The notes under the pieces were generated by a model that was not told the DNA's origin, made no database searches, and was given only the letters and a program-made list of their open reading frames with translations. A stretch of 64,000 bases of DNA from assembly GCA_024399015.1 (NCBI GenBank), contig JAKSIC010000002.1, positions 1-64,000 of the forward strand. The letters run 5' to 3'. Below, piece after piece: positions 14,826-54,727 of this stretch (within the stretch, counting starts at the first letter, position 1; each line of letters opens with the position of its first letter). The position numbers were made by a program, and so were the translations under genes. This DNA is from Fibrobacter sp. Lineage in GTDB: Bacteria > Fibrobacterota > Fibrobacteria > Fibrobacterales > Fibrobacteraceae.

Positions 14826-14865
14826 CGGCAGGGATTTGGTAATGCACTTCCCTGCCGTTTTTGTT
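14826..14865 (+). terminator. Rho-independent terminator closing the ATP-grasp cluster
   Basis: cggcaggga (14826-14834) pairs with tccctgccg (14849-14857), followed by a T-rich tail. The tail runs into the palindrome upstream of the TIGR02147 gene. Confidence 0.88.
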
Positions 14866-14894
14866 TATAATACAGCCTGTATAATAAACAAAAA
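14858..14894. promoter_or_regulatory. Candidate operator: 37-bp palindrome upstream of the first TIGR02147 gene
   Basis: Two 18-bp arms with one mismatch (69/83) flank a single central base at 14876. The inner half-site, read toward the centre, is TTTGTTTATAATACAG. It ends 103 bp before the start codon of the regulator. A related palindrome with the same geometry stands before the second TIGR02147 gene (51775-51807). It could also form an RNA hairpin, but it lies after the terminator stem, in the promoter region. Confidence 0.6.
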
Positions 14895-14997: not shown

Positions 14998-15813
14998 ATG
15001 AAGAACATCACTTGTTACACTGATTTTCGCCAATATATGCGGGACTTCTACGAAGAACGCAAAAGAGTTTCCGCATTCTCCTGGCGTGAGTTCAATAAGC
15101 TGGCCGGATTCACCTCCCCCAATTTTTTGAAATTGGTTTGCGATGGAAAAAGCAAACTGAGCAAGGTAAAGATTGAGCCCGTGGCCCGAGCCATGAACCT
15201 TGTGGATTACGAAGCAAATTACTTCGCTCTTATGGTTTCCCTGGACAATGCAAGAACCGACGAAGCCCAAAAATCCATCCTCATGGAAATGGACGCCATC
15301 GCCAAGGAACATAAGGCCCGAGTTATCGACGGCGACACCTTTGAATTCTACCAGTCCTGGGAATACCCGGTTCTTCGAGAACTTGCTCCCATGATGCCTG
15401 GCGCAAAGCCCAAGGAAATGGCAACGGTCTGCAATGAAGAAATTTCCGCAGAAGACGTAAGCCGAATTTTGAAATTCTTGGTTAAGCGCGGTCTTTTGAA
15501 AACCGACGGCAACGGATCCTTTTCCCAAACCGAAAAAACACTCATCGGTTCCAAGGAAGCCCTTCCTCTGGCAATCAGATCCATGCACAAAACTATGGCA
15601 AACTTTGCAGAAAAGGCAGTGGACAAGTACCCAGCAGGAGAACGCCACTTCATGGGAATCACCATGGGCGTGAACGAAGAACTTTATGGTAAGGTGGTTG
15701 AAGAAATCGAACACTGCTGCAAGCGAATCAACGCAATCACCGCCAACAGCGAGAACCTGAATCAGGTGTACCGCATGAACATCCAATTTTTCCCGTTTAC
15801 AAAAAAAGTTTAG
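14998..15813 (+). CDS. TIGR02147/DUF4423 family protein, probable regulator
   Basis: 271 residues, the same length as the copy at 51896. The N-terminal part (about 1-75: YTDFRQYMRDFYEERKRVSAFSWREFNKLAGFTSPNFLKLVCDGKSKLS) looks like a helix-turn-helix region. The C-terminal DUF4423-like domain shares motifs with the second copy (ELAPMMPGAKPKEMA, EDVSRILKFLVKRGLL, RHFMGITMG). It is a paralogous family expanded in Fibrobacter. It is followed 10 nt later by a lipoprotein gene with a strong Shine-Dalgarno, so the pair is an operon. DNA binding and autoregulation through the upstream palindrome are inference. Confidence 0.9.
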   Translation: MKNITCYTDFRQYMRDFYEERKRVSAFSWREFNKLAGFTSPNFLKLVCDGKSKLSKVKIEPVARAMNLVDYEANYFALMVSLDNARTDEAQKSILMEMDAIAKEHKARVIDGDTFEFYQSWEYPVLRELAPMMPGAKPKEMATVCNEEISAEDVSRILKFLVKRGLLKTDGNGSFSQTEKTLIGSKEALPLAIRSMHKTMANFAEKAVDKYPAGERHFMGITMGVNEELYGKVVEEIEHCCKRINAITANSENLNQVYRMNIQFFPFTKKV

Positions 15814-49453: not shown

Positions 49454-50380
49454 TCATTCAAAATCCTTTATACAACGGACAGATATTCGCCAATCAGGAT
49501 TTGCAGCTTCGTTCCCAAAGGAATTCCCGCCCCAAAAATTCATAACCCAGGAATCAGACACGATTTTACCACGGTAGTTATCATTAGACCAAAAACGGGT
49601 CAAGTGTCCTAGAAGATAAAGTTCGTCGGATTTTTCTAAATAACTACCAGCAGGAACGGCATTGAATCCGTAGCGGTTCGTTCCAACAAGCGCATCTTCG
49701 TTCCCCTGAACAATGATTGTACTGGGCTTAAGATATTCGCTCCAGAGGCTATCCGTTTTCAAGCTGGTCCCTACATTTTCACAACCATTATCCTCGGTAA
49801 CAAACAACCACATTTCCTTCCATTCTTCAGAAGTAGGAATGTGAAATCCTTCGGGGCAGGCAGTCTGAGCATCCTTCCAGGTATAATAGCGACCCACCAC
49901 ATTAAACAATTCGCCATCGGGAGCAATGGATTTTTCCGTCTTGAAACGGAGATTCTCGGCAAACCATGTCTGCGAACCAATCCTTGTCAGCCGATAGACA
50001 TAACCATCCCGAGGATCAGTGAAGAATTCGTATTCAAACGGCTTTATGGGAGGTTTTTCTTCACAAAGAATTTCTGTTGCTGAAAGCCACTGATGCTCAC
50101 TGCAGTAATAGTCTGCATTTTCACTTGCCACAAAGGTTGGAACGTCATTCTTTCCGATATAGTCACAAGGTGGTAAATCACCCAACGTGGCAACAGTATC
50201 GACTACAAGATCGTAAAGACAATCATCGTCACATTCTAAGCCATCGTCTGTACCATAGGCACAGGCAATATGCTGCACCGACCAGAAGCAAGCCAACACA
50301 CCCGAAAACACCTTGGACTTGTCCGTCCAAAAAAACGCCGTAACAAATGCCATTAGTTTTCGGATGATATTTCTAATCAT
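49454..50380 (-). CDS. FISUMP-domain protein (Fibrobacter major paralogous domain)
   Basis: 308 residues. The N-terminus has a hydrophobic stretch that may act as a signal or anchor (VFSGVLACFWSVQHIACAYG). The C-terminal 190 residues carry the domain named after Fibrobacter succinogenes: DPRDGYVYRLTRIGSQTWFAENLRF, GRYYTWKDAQTACPEGFHIPTSEEWKEMW, LVGTNRYGFNAVPAGSY and FWSNDNY...SVRCIKD. Typically found in surface or secreted proteins of unknown role. It lies 71 nt after the lipoprotein gene on the same strand. Confidence 0.88.
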   Translation of the reverse strand: MIRNIIRKLMAFVTAFFWTDKSKVFSGVLACFWSVQHIACAYGTDDGLECDDDCLYDLVVDTVATLGDLPPCDYIGKNDVPTFVASENADYYCSEHQWLSATEILCEEKPPIKPFEYEFFTDPRDGYVYRLTRIGSQTWFAENLRFKTEKSIAPDGELFNVVGRYYTWKDAQTACPEGFHIPTSEEWKEMWLFVTEDNGCENVGTSLKTDSLWSEYLKPSTIIVQGNEDALVGTNRYGFNAVPAGSYLEKSDELYLLGHLTRFWSNDNYRGKIVSDSWVMNFWGGNSFGNEAANPDWRISVRCIKDFE

Positions 50381-50451: not shown

Positions 50452-51687
50452 CTATTCCGCACAATTGGTTTTCAGTTCCAGCGCGCGTTCATACAGGTAA
50501 TGCTTTGCAGAAACAGAAGGCTCAAAGTTTTTATCGCAGGTCCAATATCTGATTTCATCACTCTGCAGATGTTCTGTCAATACGCCCTCATTTTCTGTAC
50601 ATTGACTACTAAATTTCGGGACATATTCTTCATCAATTGATTCGTGGTGATGGGAGTAAATTACAAGGCGTTCCACAGAATTTACGGACGGTCCTTTCAT
50701 GAACAAATATTGTTGGAAAATAACAATATCATATCCATCCGTAACATCATAAACAAGACCTATTTGTGGTTCGTTCACATAAACAACACACGAGCGCAAA
50801 CCATCAGCGCTAAAGTATTTATGAACAAAGGTTCGTTCTTCTGTAAAGTCAATTTCATACCAAAGTACTCCGCGATGATCTCGGCGAGCAAAGGAATCGA
50901 CCTTTACTTCAGGCTTATACGACTCAAGAATTTGTTGCGGAGTCATGGAACTTTCTTCCGCATAGATTTCTTCCATAGAATATGATCTTGCCGAGGAACT
51001 GTAAGGTTCCTTTTCTTCATAAAAAGGATCTTCACTGGAGGAACTTTCCATCGGTTCAAATCCGCTAGAAACACCGGAAGGACCTGCATCAGGAAGCGTT
51101 GCAGACTCGAAGTGTCCAGATGTCGGTTTTCCAGAATTCGCGCCAGCCAACTTGTCGCAAACAGAAACAAAGCGTCTCTCGAATTCCGAAAGTTCTTCAT
51201 CAAAATTACGTTCGCCCGCCCGTTCTACGCGACACAAAACATCAAAGGATTTTTCACTGCAGTTTTCGTTTTCATCCAGCAAGGTTGCATCGTCAGCAAG
51301 GCATTCCTCAGAAATATCCTTCCATAGGGAATTGCACATGTCGTAAGACGCAACCGACTGGGCACTTGAATAAGTAAGCACGCCCCTGCCTACAATCTTA
51401 AATGCAGCAGTAAAGACAATTTCACCCACGGTACACGAACCTTGCGCACCCTGTTCTTCTTGATAAACACGCACAACTGTTCTACCGAGAAGATTTTCGC
51501 TAGACGGTTTTGTGGTGAAGATAATTTCATGTATTTCAGAAGAACTTTGCGGCACCACAGAACTGGACGATTCCACTTCGCCGATGGTATTGGATTCAGT
51601 GGCGTTGCCCGCCGTTTCCTTTTCGGAGCAGCCAAACACTACAAAAAACAAGGCTATCGTTAATACCAGCGAACAAAAAATCTTCAT
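50452..51687 (-). CDS. Lipoprotein of unknown function, divergent from TIGR02147 regulator
   Basis: 411 residues. Lipobox VFGC (Cys20), then NATESNTIGEVESSSSVVPQSSSE linker; a second Ser/Glu-rich section in the middle (MESSSSEDPFYEEKEPYSSSARSYS). The mature part has many cysteines, possibly disulfides. No known domain. TAAATT lies 6 nt before the ATG and no Shine-Dalgarno is seen. Its promoter shares the intergenic region with the palindrome at 51775-51807, so the regulator may control it. Confidence 0.8.
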   Translation of the reverse strand: MKIFCSLVLTIALFFVVFGCSEKETAGNATESNTIGEVESSSSVVPQSSSEIHEIIFTTKPSSENLLGRTVVRVYQEEQGAQGSCTVGEIVFTAAFKIVGRGVLTYSSAQSVASYDMCNSLWKDISEECLADDATLLDENENCSEKSFDVLCRVERAGERNFDEELSEFERRFVSVCDKLAGANSGKPTSGHFESATLPDAGPSGVSSGFEPMESSSSEDPFYEEKEPYSSSARSYSMEEIYAEESSMTPQQILESYKPEVKVDSFARRDHRGVLWYEIDFTEERTFVHKYFSADGLRSCVVYVNEPQIGLVYDVTDGYDIVIFQQYLFMKGPSVNSVERLVIYSHHHESIDEEYVPKFSSQCTENEGVLTEHLQSDEIRYWTCDKNFEPSVSAKHYLYERALELKTNCAE

Positions 51688-51693
51688 ACCCTA

Positions 51694-51699
51694 AATTTA
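51694..51699 (-). promoter_or_regulatory. Candidate -10 box of a leaderless transcript
   Basis: TAAATT ends 6 nt before ATG 51687 (minus strand). Confidence 0.45.
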
Positions 51700-51774: not shown

Positions 51775-51807
51775 TTTCTATATGATTCATAATGAATCAT
51801 ATAGAAA
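51775..51807. promoter_or_regulatory. Candidate operator: 33-bp perfect palindrome between divergent genes
   Basis: Two perfect 16-bp arms around a single base at 51791; half-site toward the centre TTTCTATATGATTCAT. It ends 88 bp before the TIGR02147 start codon and lies 88 bp from the lipoprotein start on the other side, near the middle of the divergent region. The half-site matches that at 14860-14875 at 11 of 16 positions. Confidence 0.7.
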
Positions 51808-51882: not shown

Positions 51883-51888
51883 TATATT
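51883..51888 (+). promoter_or_regulatory. Candidate -10 box of a leaderless transcript
   Basis: TATATT ends exactly 7 nt before ATG 51896, identical to the arrangement before the first TIGR02147 gene. A TTGACA at 51866-51871 is too close for a standard -35. Confidence 0.5.
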
Positions 51889-51895
51889 CAAATCC

Positions 51896-52711
51896 ATGAA
51901 ATCCATCTTTGGCTACAGTGACTTTCGAGATTACATCAGGGATTATTTTGAGGAACGCAAGAAACATTCCACTTTCTCCTGGCGTGAATTCAACAGATTA
52001 GCAGGATTTTCATCGCCAAACTACTTGAAACTTGTTTGCGACGGGAAAAGCAAGCTGAGCAAGAAAAGGGCAGGATTCGTTGCAGCCGCAATGAATTTGT
52101 CCGCCAGCGAACAGGAATTCTTTGAGCTGATGGTCGCCATCGACAACACCACTAATGAAGCCTATCGGAAAACATTGACTTTAGAATTGTGCAAAATGGC
52201 ACGCAAGTCAAAAGCCCGCATTATCGATGCCGATGCCTACATTTTTTACGAATCCTGGAAGTACCCGGCCCTTCGCGAATTGGCCCCCTTGATGCCTGGA
52301 GCAAGTTCCAAGGAAATCGCAGATGTCTGCCACGAAAAAATTTGCGCTGAGGATGTTGAAAACACTCTGCAGTTTTTGGTGAAAGCCGGCTTCCTGGAAA
52401 AGGATAATAAGGGACGCTACACGCAAACGGACGCAAATGTGACCGGTTCCAAGGAAAGTCTCCCCCGCGCCATGTGCGAAATGCAGCGTCAAATGGCGGC
52501 TCTCGCCGAAAAGGCCATCGGCAAGTTTTCAAAGGACGAACGCCACTTTCTAGGAATCACCTGCGGCTGCGACGAGGAAACCTACAAGAAAGTAACCGCC
52601 GAACTAGAGGATTGTCGCGACCGAATCACAGCCATCACTTCCGCCGCCAAGAACATCAATCAAGTGTTTCGAATCAACCTGCAAATGTTTCCCCTAACAA
52701 AGAAAGTGTAG
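51896..52711 (+). CDS. TIGR02147/DUF4423 family protein, probable regulator, second copy
   Basis: 271 residues from ATG 51896, chosen because it aligns with the start of the first copy and gives the same length; an upstream TTG at 51866 is less likely. Shared segments include YSDFRDYIRDYFEERKKHSTFSWREFNRLAGFSSPNYLKLVCDGKSKLS and RELAPLMPGASSKEIADVC, and both end with FPLTKKV or FPFTKKV. About half the residues are identical by eye. It is followed 23 nt later by a lipoprotein gene and is divergent from another. Confidence 0.9.
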   Translation: MKSIFGYSDFRDYIRDYFEERKKHSTFSWREFNRLAGFSSPNYLKLVCDGKSKLSKKRAGFVAAAMNLSASEQEFFELMVAIDNTTNEAYRKTLTLELCKMARKSKARIIDADAYIFYESWKYPALRELAPLMPGASSKEIADVCHEKICAEDVENTLQFLVKAGFLEKDNKGRYTQTDANVTGSKESLPRAMCEMQRQMAALAEKAIGKFSKDERHFLGITCGCDEETYKKVTAELEDCRDRITAITSAAKNINQVFRINLQMFPLTKKV

Positions 52712-52734: not shown

Positions 52735-53223
52735 ATGAAAAAAATCCTATTCATTGTCGTCGGATCCATTGCGGTAGCTATTACAGGCTGCGCAAAGCAG
52801 TACATGCTCAACGATCCTGAACTGTACAATCAATACATGACCCGCAATTATGGGCATTCCAAGGCGGCATGTTATAACGCAGTCAAGGCCATGCTTGCCG
52901 ACGAAAAAATTCCTATTGCCAAGGATGAACCCGAAAAAGGAAAACTGGTGACAGAGAAATTCAAGGCCATGTCGGTTGTAACGGGCAACATCCAAACATA
53001 CAATGGGCAGGGCACAGTCTCTGCTCAGAAATTAAACCTCAGTTTTAAATATTGGATCCACGTTACCGGTGACGAAACCTCTTGTACTGTTAAAATGACT
53101 AAGCTTAGAATGTGGATGAACGATGGCGAAGCCGAATGGGTGCGCCCGGATGACGCCGGCAAAATGACATGGGACCCGATGTTCCGCTCCATCGGGGAGC
53201 AGTTGGAAGACGACAACGAATAA
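52735..53223 (+). CDS. Small lipoprotein downstream of TIGR02147 regulator
   Basis: 162 residues from ATG 52735, with Shine-Dalgarno AAGGAAAAG. Lipobox ITGC in MKKILFIVVGSIAVAITGCAKQY. The mature domain (YNAVKAMLADEKIPIAKDEPEKGKLVTEKFKA...LSFKYWIHVTGDETSCTVKMTKLRMWMN) has the helix-strand pattern of small outer-membrane lipoproteins that mix a BamC/NlpB-like fold. The family is not identified. Probably an operon with the regulator. Confidence 0.75.
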   Translation: MKKILFIVVGSIAVAITGCAKQYMLNDPELYNQYMTRNYGHSKAACYNAVKAMLADEKIPIAKDEPEKGKLVTEKFKAMSVVTGNIQTYNGQGTVSAQKLNLSFKYWIHVTGDETSCTVKMTKLRMWMNDGEAEWVRPDDAGKMTWDPMFRSIGEQLEDDNE

Positions 53224-53261: not shown

Positions 53262-53289
53262 GAAACATACAAAAAGATTTGTATGTTTC
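53262..53289. terminator. Hairpin between convergent genes, likely two-way terminator
   Basis: gaaacatacaaa (53262-53273) pairs perfectly with tttgtatgtttc (53278-53289). It lies between the 53223 and 53303 gene ends. The T-run after it is poor, so termination strength is uncertain. Confidence 0.55.
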
Positions 53290-53302: not shown

Positions 53303-54727
53303 CTAGAACAACGTCTTCACGCCAAACCCGATAATGCCATCTAGGAAGTTGCAACCGTTCCGCATGGCATAATAGAGATTGATGCTCCAGTTCTTACGAT
53401 ACTGGGTAAAGGCTATGCCGTAGTCCTGTTCACGGGCCCAGCCATGTTCTGCTCCGGAACGGCGATATAAGCCAGGCTGGTAGAAAAGTTCTATGCTCAG
53501 GTCGTAACCGTCCTGCCACATGACCGCCAGTTCAGAATAGCCGTAAGCGCGGGTACGCACCGCCTGGTAACCCATTCCCTTGAAACTATCCATGCCGCCC
53601 AAAGCAAACAAATCGGTGCGTTTCAGTTTTCCATCGGAGGGGAAAATTCCTCCAGCCACGCCAGAAATGCGGCTGATAAAATTTTTATAGATGGGCTGGT
53701 AACGCACGACACTGGCCTTCGCCAAAAGGAAATTATCCAAGGAATCGGGGCGATCCATTTTATAAGACAATTTACCGTCTATCCGCCAGCCATCGCGAGG
53801 CAAGGCGAAACGATCCAGGGAAACGTAAGACACTTCAAGAGAGGAATACTTATTGTCTTCGCTGACGCCGACAAAGACTCCAATGCTAAAATCAAATCCG
53901 ATATCACGGGTAACACCGATTTCACCGTACAAAATACGTTCAATAGATTCTGCAGAAGCTGAATCCTCGTTGGAATTTTCGGAATCCGCGTCAGACGCCG
54001 TAACCGTTTCTTCGTTGAACATGCCGCGGGCAACCACGTTCCAGGAGGTTCCAAAAATCCAAGGTTCCTTGTAAGAGCCATCCAAATGGCGGGAATCATC
54101 ACCAATGAAACCTTCCAACTGCAGGTCACGAGCCGTTCCCAGAATGTTATAGAGGTTCACGTTGATCTGGCCTTCCCAAGCGTTTCCTTCGCTGGAGTAG
54201 GTCAGCAAAGCTTCCGCCTCGGAAACGGCGGCAGCCCTCATGTGGAATACAGGCACAATGCGATTTCGCGTCGGGTCACGGAACATCTGGGCGGGCGCAG
54301 TTCTCTCATAATATCCTAAGCGAGAAAGTTTGCGGTCCGCACGTTCCAAATCCGTCGGGGAAACATAGGCGCCCGCTTCCAAGCCCGCCAGTTTTGCAAA
54401 CGCCTCGGGCTTCGTCTTCCCCGCCTCCAGATTCTCGGCAGGCGCCCAAACCCAGGCGGCCCCGCGGTTCAATTGAACAGTCAACGCGCCAGCAGAATCT
54501 ACAGAGCCTTCCACCACAGCACCAAGGAAACCGCGGTTTTCGTAATAACGTTCCAGCTTCTGGGCTGCACTGCGCCAGCCATCGCAGGGCGCACCTACCG
54601 CAGACTGCATTTCCGTTTCGTCAAAGTCAGAATGTTCCCCAGACCAGACAATCTTCTGGATACGGCACTGACCGCCAAAAGCCAGTACGCTAGACATCAA
54701 GAAAATTGCCAGTCCTATATACTTCAT
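53303..54727 (-). CDS. Omp85-family outer-membrane protein
   Basis: 474 residues. Signal peptide to about residue 19. POTRA-like repeats (CRIQKIVWSGEHSDFDETEMQSAVGAPCDGWRSAAQKLERYYENRGFLGAVVEGSV and LERADRKLSRLGYYERTAPAQMFRDPTRN) lead to a C-terminal beta-barrel with the signature LFALGGMDSFKGMGYQAVRTRAYGYSELA. A Ser/Asp/Glu-rich loop interrupts the barrel (TASDADSENSNEDSASAES). Probably last gene of the mglA operon, after 109 nt that hold two dispersed repeats. Second Omp85-like protein in the window (other at 26315). Confidence 0.82.
   Translation of the reverse strand: MKYIGLAIFLMSSVLAFGGQCRIQKIVWSGEHSDFDETEMQSAVGAPCDGWRSAAQKLERYYENRGFLGAVVEGSVDSAGALTVQLNRGAAWVWAPAENLEAGKTKPEAFAKLAGLEAGAYVSPTDLERADRKLSRLGYYERTAPAQMFRDPTRNRIVPVFHMRAAAVSEAEALLTYSSEGNAWEGQINVNLYNILGTARDLQLEGFIGDDSRHLDGSYKEPWIFGTSWNVVARGMFNEETVTASDADSENSNEDSASAESIERILYGEIGVTRDIGFDFSIGVFVGVSEDNKYSSLEVSYVSLDRFALPRDGWRIDGKLSYKMDRPDSLDNFLLAKASVVRYQPIYKNFISRISGVAGGIFPSDGKLKRTDLFALGGMDSFKGMGYQAVRTRAYGYSELAVMWQDGYDLSIELFYQPGLYRRSGAEHGWAREQDYGIAFTQYRKNWSINLYYAMRNGCNFLDGIIGFGVKTLF

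Follow-up and report, generated by a model that had tools for sequence, protein, structure and literature searches.

The window analyzed here is a 64,000-nt stretch of a Fibrobacter sp. contig in which a 33-bp palindrome separates two divergently oriented genes, one for a member of the TIGR02147 family on the plus strand and one for a lipoprotein on the minus strand. The features of the locus are as follows.

49454–50380, minus strand: FISUMP protein (TIGR02145, 136 bits; PF09603, 80 bits)
50452–51687, minus strand: divergent lipoprotein, 411 aa, with N- and C-domains that resemble parts of other lipoproteins
51692–51699, minus strand: inferred −10-like box of the lipoprotein promoter, TAAATTTA, 12 nt before the ATG and 92 bp from the dyad center; conserved
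51775–51807, no strand: perfect palindrome in this genome with 16-nt arms and a 1-nt center; proposed TIGR02147 operator
51776–51789, no strand: left conserved arm, TTCTATATGATTCA, identical in 14 of 14 columns across five genomes
51790–51792, no strand: variable 3-nt center, conserved in none of its 3 columns
51793–51806, no strand: right conserved arm, TGAATCATATAGAA, identical in 12 of 14 columns, the first 12 invariant
51883–51888, plus strand: inferred −10 box of the TIGR02147 promoter, TATATT, 13 nt before the ATG and 92 bp from the dyad center; conserved in five genomes
51896–52711, plus strand: TIGR02147/DUF4423 protein, 271 aa, with an XRE-type HTH and a winged helix (profiles, AlphaFold2, Foldseek); proposed binder of the dyad
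52735–53223, plus strand: small lipoprotein, 162 aa, encoded 23 nt past the end of the regulator gene, with a lipobox in its sequence

The product of 51896–52711 is a full-length member of the TIGR02147/DUF4423 family, which has been named but is uncharacterized: it matches TIGR02147 with 261 bits over positions 1 to 272 of 272 (curated cutoff, 50) and PF14394, the C-terminal DUF4423 profile, with 87 bits (cutoff, 30). The AlphaFold2 model (pLDDT, 87) has an XRE-like N-terminal HTH of five helices, for which the HTH of DdrO (6rnz) was the best match in Foldseek, with a probability of 1.00 and 1.9 Å over 65 residues, but with a weak E value of 0.45. The DUF4423 part was modeled as a MarR-like winged helix. 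The Foldseek matches are partial throughout. No full-length structural match was found by Foldseek or by a PDB sequence search, and the latter returned nothing beyond weak HTH matches. The TIGR02147 profile has matches in all 80 Fibrobacter genomes searched, with 26 copies in this genome and 39 in another.

Downstream of the regulator, the small lipoprotein gene is probably part of the same operon. Across the genus, nearly all TIGR02147 genes (114 of 145 by a crude test) have a lipoprotein gene directly behind them, at −11 to about +25 nt and often overlapping; in the window, a relative of these trailing lipoproteins sits divergently instead. The N-domain of this divergent lipoprotein resembles lipoproteins encoded directly behind other TIGR02147 genes, and its C-domain (residues 253 to 409) resembles the N-domain of FISUMP lipoproteins encoded behind MKPISDY-type TIGR02147 genes. 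The FISUMP gene downstream probably shares the operon of the divergent lipoprotein. FISUMP proteins (TIGR02145, Fib_succ_major) occur in high copy, at 17 to 119 per genome, and have been suggested to be cellulose binding or cohesin-like (PMC4704652). We found no description of how FISUMP genes are regulated in the literature searched.

The palindrome, TTTCTATATGATTCAT A ATGAATCATATAGAAA, is the strongest in the 64-kb window by palindrome scan, and the first-pass annotation had its arms, center, and coordinates exactly right. The distance of 88 bp that it gave to each start codon is correct on the TIGR02147 side (ATG at 51896); on the lipoprotein side (ATG on the minus strand, first base at 51687) the gap is 87 nt. 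Measured from its center, the dyad lies about 104 to 105 bp from either start codon. Shuffling ruled out a chance origin: perfect arms reached at most 12 nt in 20 Markov-shuffled versions of the window, compared to 16 nt in the real sequence, and when only the intergenic region was shuffled, arms of at least 11 nt arose in 24 of 20,000 cases. By pattern search, the method behind all genome-wide counts given here, there are no further copies in the same genome at up to 3 mismatches, which rules out a repetitive element. Weak 23-mer matches at C1:379936 (2 mismatches) and C5:991 (3 mismatches) look incidental, the former lying inside a long open frame.

An alternative is that the palindrome acts as RNA, with a hairpin in the TIGR02147 leader serving as an intrinsic terminator or as an attenuator. 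It would fold into a 15-bp hairpin (−16.7 kcal/mol; z score, −5.2), and a T6 run lies on the plus strand 3 nt past the stem (AACTTTTTTC), an arrangement that is terminator-like by consensus scan. The first-pass annotation had called a terminator unlikely on the grounds that no T-run follows the palindrome. That reason was mistaken, but its conclusion holds for others: the stem is A/T-rich with 3 G-C pairs, and the palindrome lies upstream of both divergent starts, so that neither strand has an annotated gene whose transcription would run into it. The conserved −10 boxes, 12 to 13 nt from each ATG, lie downstream of the palindrome, and other sites of its class have no consistent T-run. A search of Rfam returned no family at or near threshold. 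Position, stem composition, and the inconsistent T-run ruled out a terminator or attenuator as a candidate, and we regard any role as RNA as very improbable.

Both flanking genes are kept in divergent orientation in four other Fibrobacter genomes, and the dyad is present in all of them as TTCTATATGATTCA-N3-TGAATCATATAG(AA). The named relatives are Fibrobacter metagenome-assembled genomes from horse faeces. Over the same five-genome alignment in which the arms are so strongly conserved, 21 of 60 columns of the left spacer are identical. None of the three central nucleotides is conserved, which makes the conserved unit approximately 14+3+14 rather than 16+1+16; it is better written as TTCTATATGATTCA-N3-TGAATCATATAGAA. 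Comparison with orthologous loci had been proposed as a check on the palindrome, with its loss among relatives that retain the genes counting against a function. All five genomes with both genes also have the palindrome, and it withstands this comparison because the dyad has been kept while its center and the left spacer have diverged.

Similar dyads precede TIGR02147 genes throughout the genus. Dyads with at least 10 of 12 positions paired were found within a 110-bp upstream stretch for 48 of 154 TIGR02147 genes, compared to 4 of 154 after shuffling. Class A dyads, which include those of the window and of the MKPISDY clade, have CTATAT outer arms and an N3 center, and class B dyads follow the pattern ATNATAC-N5-GTATNAT. 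The class A pattern CTATATGNNTCANNNTGANNCATATAG, at up to 3 mismatches, is present in 39 of the 80 genomes (one genome for the reversed control), and the class B pattern ATNATACANNNTGTATNAT, matched exactly, occurs in 44 of 80 (no matches for the reversed control). When one locus per genome is counted, 25 of 30 class B sites lie 94 to 126 bp before a TIGR02147 start, and 22 of 29 class A sites stand before a gene for a TIGR02147 protein, a FISUMP protein, or a lipoprotein. As would be expected of an operator, the site class recurs before members of the regulator family and is rare elsewhere. On the other side, many TIGR02147 paralogues, including most of the 26 in this genome, lack a recognizable dyad of the class. 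Several genomes carry a single class A site between a divergent TIGR02147 gene and a FISUMP lipoprotein gene, as in the window, and the divergent layout of regulator and lipoprotein around one dyad is also found in a second, distant clade. In the same regions of several genomes, additional class A sites lie ahead of separate FISUMP operons.

Some genomes have several copies inside 10 kb around FISUMP clusters, as might be seen if the dyad were the end of a mobile element or a site for site-specific recombination, for example in promoter inversion or FISUMP shuffling. Against this, there is one dyad per intergenic region at a fixed distance from the start codon, no inverted pair flanks a promoter, and the palindrome of the window is single in its own genome at the threshold given above. 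The sequence of the dyad also co-varies with the DNA-binding domain of the neighboring gene, as set out below, and a mobile-element end or recombination site is to our minds very improbable.

The arm sequence of the dyad, which we call its flavor, differs between paralogues, and this variation was used to ask which protein reads the site. Among 70 TIGR02147 genes with a dyad, differences between arm sequences correlated with differences between HTH domains (r = 0.77; partial r = 0.69 with the remainder of the protein controlled for) and less with differences between the remaining parts of the proteins (r = 0.49; partial r = 0.10 given the HTH). Control stretches from the same upstream regions gave r values of 0.19 to 0.47, and the dyad center gave 0.09. 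When each protein cluster was represented by a single gene (22 genes), r was 0.72, a value reached in none of 5,000 Mantel permutations; the gene pairs are phylogenetically non-independent, and the correlation is strong evidence that falls short of formal proof. Site specificity tracks the DNA-binding domain, as it would for an operator (r of 0.77 versus 0.49), and this co-variation suggests indirectly that the N-terminal XRE-type HTH may read DNA in a sequence-specific manner. Within helix 3, residue 42 shows an association with flavor. The window clade and L120 share one recognition helix, SPNYLKLVCDGKSKLSK, but the L120 dyad has a different flavor (GTATAAT). Since an identical helix accompanies two flavors, specificity cannot lie in helix 3 alone, and a simple one-residue recognition code was not established.

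Class B promoters add a third copy of the half-site at a fixed position of approximately −50 relative to the ATG, directly ahead of the −35 box (TTGAC at −36); this copy matches at 7 of 7 positions in nearly all genes. It is present in L036, L049, L040, and approximately 45 further upstream regions of TIGR02147 genes, and its flavor follows that of the dyad: GATAC dyads are accompanied by GTATCAT, AACAC dyads by GTGTTAT, and most of the rest by GTATAAT. The simple explanation to which this points is that one DNA-binding protein reads all three copies. An RNA hairpin is unable to explain the third half-site because it is present as a single copy, and such flavor-matched single half-sites exist without any hairpin. 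A search of the window clade for a promoter-proximal third half-site found none, with 4 to 5 of 7 matching positions at best.

One further possibility is that a different regulator binds the dyads of many TIGR02147 and FISUMP promoters and that the TIGR02147 proteins are mere targets. One dyad class is indeed common to many promoters, including those of FISUMP operons without an adjacent TIGR02147 gene. Such a regulator is nonetheless unlikely, given that flavors track the neighboring HTH (partial r of 0.69, with controls at 0.18 to 0.44) and not the rest of the protein (0.10). The distribution of the window flavor also argues against it. At up to 1 mismatch, this flavor occurs in 7 of 80 genomes. 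Five of them have the orthologous regulator, and in the other two, G032 and G033, the sites lie near contig ends (in G032, the lipoprotein orthologue is itself cut by the contig end). The TIGR02147 protein encoded at 51896–52711 is, in contrast, very likely to be the protein that binds the dyad.

The first-pass annotation had suggested that the position of the palindrome would allow a single regulator to govern the lipoprotein together with its own operon. Conservation of the dyad, its recurrence at fixed distances, and its co-variation with the HTH all support that suggestion, as does the recurrence of the divergent layout in a second clade. We consider it likely that 51775–51807 is the operator of the adjacent TIGR02147 regulator, serving the regulator's own promoter as well as the lipoprotein-FISUMP operon; that the regulator acts on both divergent promoters is probable, if a little less so. 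In the proposed mechanism, the regulator would bind as a dimer, with each subunit reading one 14-bp half-site through its N-terminal XRE-type HTH and the 3 nt between the half-sites going unread. A single site would then control two divergent operons, one encoding the TIGR02147 protein and the small lipoprotein and the other encoding the lipoprotein and FISUMP surface proteins.

The −10 boxes were inferred from sequence alone, and relative to them the dyad is predicted to lie upstream of both promoters and not to overlap either. Of the 87 TIGR02147 genes with dyads, 69 have an inferred −10 box 12 to 13 nt ahead of the start codon. At this spacing, transcription would begin on or beside the ATG, so that leaderless mRNAs are predicted for many TIGR02147 genes and for the lipoprotein of the window. 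FISUMP targets are predicted to have longer leaders. Many class B promoters have a −35 box; the TIGR02147 promoter of the window clade has no match to one at the right spacing (2 of 6 positions). Across clades, the distance from the dyad to the −10 box falls into four classes, of which one is dominant (~78 to 80, 92, 98 to 101, and 109 to 113 bp).

We lean toward a protein that acts mainly as an upstream activator, because the site seems too far upstream to block RNA polymerase, because the promoter of the window clade lacks a −35 box, and because the distance classes are spaced by approximately one helical turn. Sites of CRP-type class I activators are upstream dyads placed at steps of about one helical turn. 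The resemblance to them is by analogy and is limited to these distance steps, of which four classes were seen with one dominant; the proteins are unrelated.

It is also conceivable, though less probable, that the TIGR02147 protein is a repressor that binds the same dyad, perhaps with looping, and keeps both operons shut until a signal releases it. Autoregulation through divergent operators is commonly repressive, and the dyad of the sister class and the half-site abutting its −35 box are about seven helical turns apart, which would fit a repression loop. In the window clade, however, the dyad center lies ~92 bp upstream of both −10 boxes without a promoter-proximal half-site, and the lack of a −35 box at the right spacing suggests that polymerase needs help rather than blocking. 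The operators of XRE-family HTH repressors, such as those of the lambda-repressor type, share with this site a dimer-type dyad beside the regulator gene, with conserved arms and a variable center. They differ in that they overlap the promoter, whereas this site is ~104 bp upstream of the start codon, and the regulator differs from XRE-family repressors in its extra winged helix and the absence of a full-length structural match.

There is nothing unusual in a palindromic operator beside the gene of its regulator. New, as far as the limited literature searched goes, are its assignment to this family, the flavors specific to individual paralogues, and the connection with FISUMP operons: that literature yielded no operator, target, or function for TIGR02147 or DUF4423 (PF14394), mentioning the latter and not the former. 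Judging from the sequence comparisons, the dyad is very probably part of a large, undescribed control system of Fibrobacter in which each copy of the regulator would have its own matching site and would often control surface lipoproteins. TIGR02147 and its dyad are thus a candidate regulator and operator for FISUMP genes, which lie downstream in the controlled operon both here and in other genomes. The family gains a predicted DNA site and a specificity rule open to testing through the exchange of arms or of HTH domains. With FISUMP proteins, for which cellulose binding has been proposed, in the target set, the regulation of surface proteins becomes testable in a main cellulose degrader of the rumen and gut.

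That the paired lipoprotein senses and signals is a guess. We also speculate that Fibrobacter may run dozens of parallel channels, each made up of a TIGR02147 regulator, a lipoprotein whose gene lies directly behind that of the regulator or, as in the window, divergent from it, and a dyad of its own flavor, and each insulated from the others by coevolution of HTH and operator, in which the lipoprotein reports an outside cue, such as plant-wall polymers, and FISUMP genes are switched on. If so, Fibrobacter would have its own lineage-specific equivalent of the systems by which Bacteroidota sense polysaccharides.

Several further sites were observed in the course of the analysis. The second-best palindrome of the window (14858–14894) is a class B dyad, ATAATACAGCCTGTATAAT, upstream of the other TIGR02147 gene of the window (14998–15813), which has a near half-site, GTATAAC, at −48 and a lipoprotein gene behind it. 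Class A sites at L207 2294, L208 2433, L211 11309, L213 2391, L214 405, L218 3071, L224 2427, and L225 2560 are among those adjoining genes whose products start with MEFLDREEESKRL or MKLIERTxYLDTLKN and, by inspection only, resemble ATPases. A flavor written CTATATGCCTCAGGGTGAGGCGTATGG occurs at L226 2722, where it precedes a FISUMP gene, and at G032:C15:1258 and G032:C23:3540. In L217, a site of the window flavor lies just ahead of a gene for a TonB C-terminal-domain protein (PF03544; 3064–4346), hinting at regulon members other than FISUMP. Within the window, a hairpin with 12-bp arms at 53262–53289 separates the small lipoprotein gene (end at 53223) from a convergent minus-strand gene (end at 53303) and is probably a bidirectional terminator.
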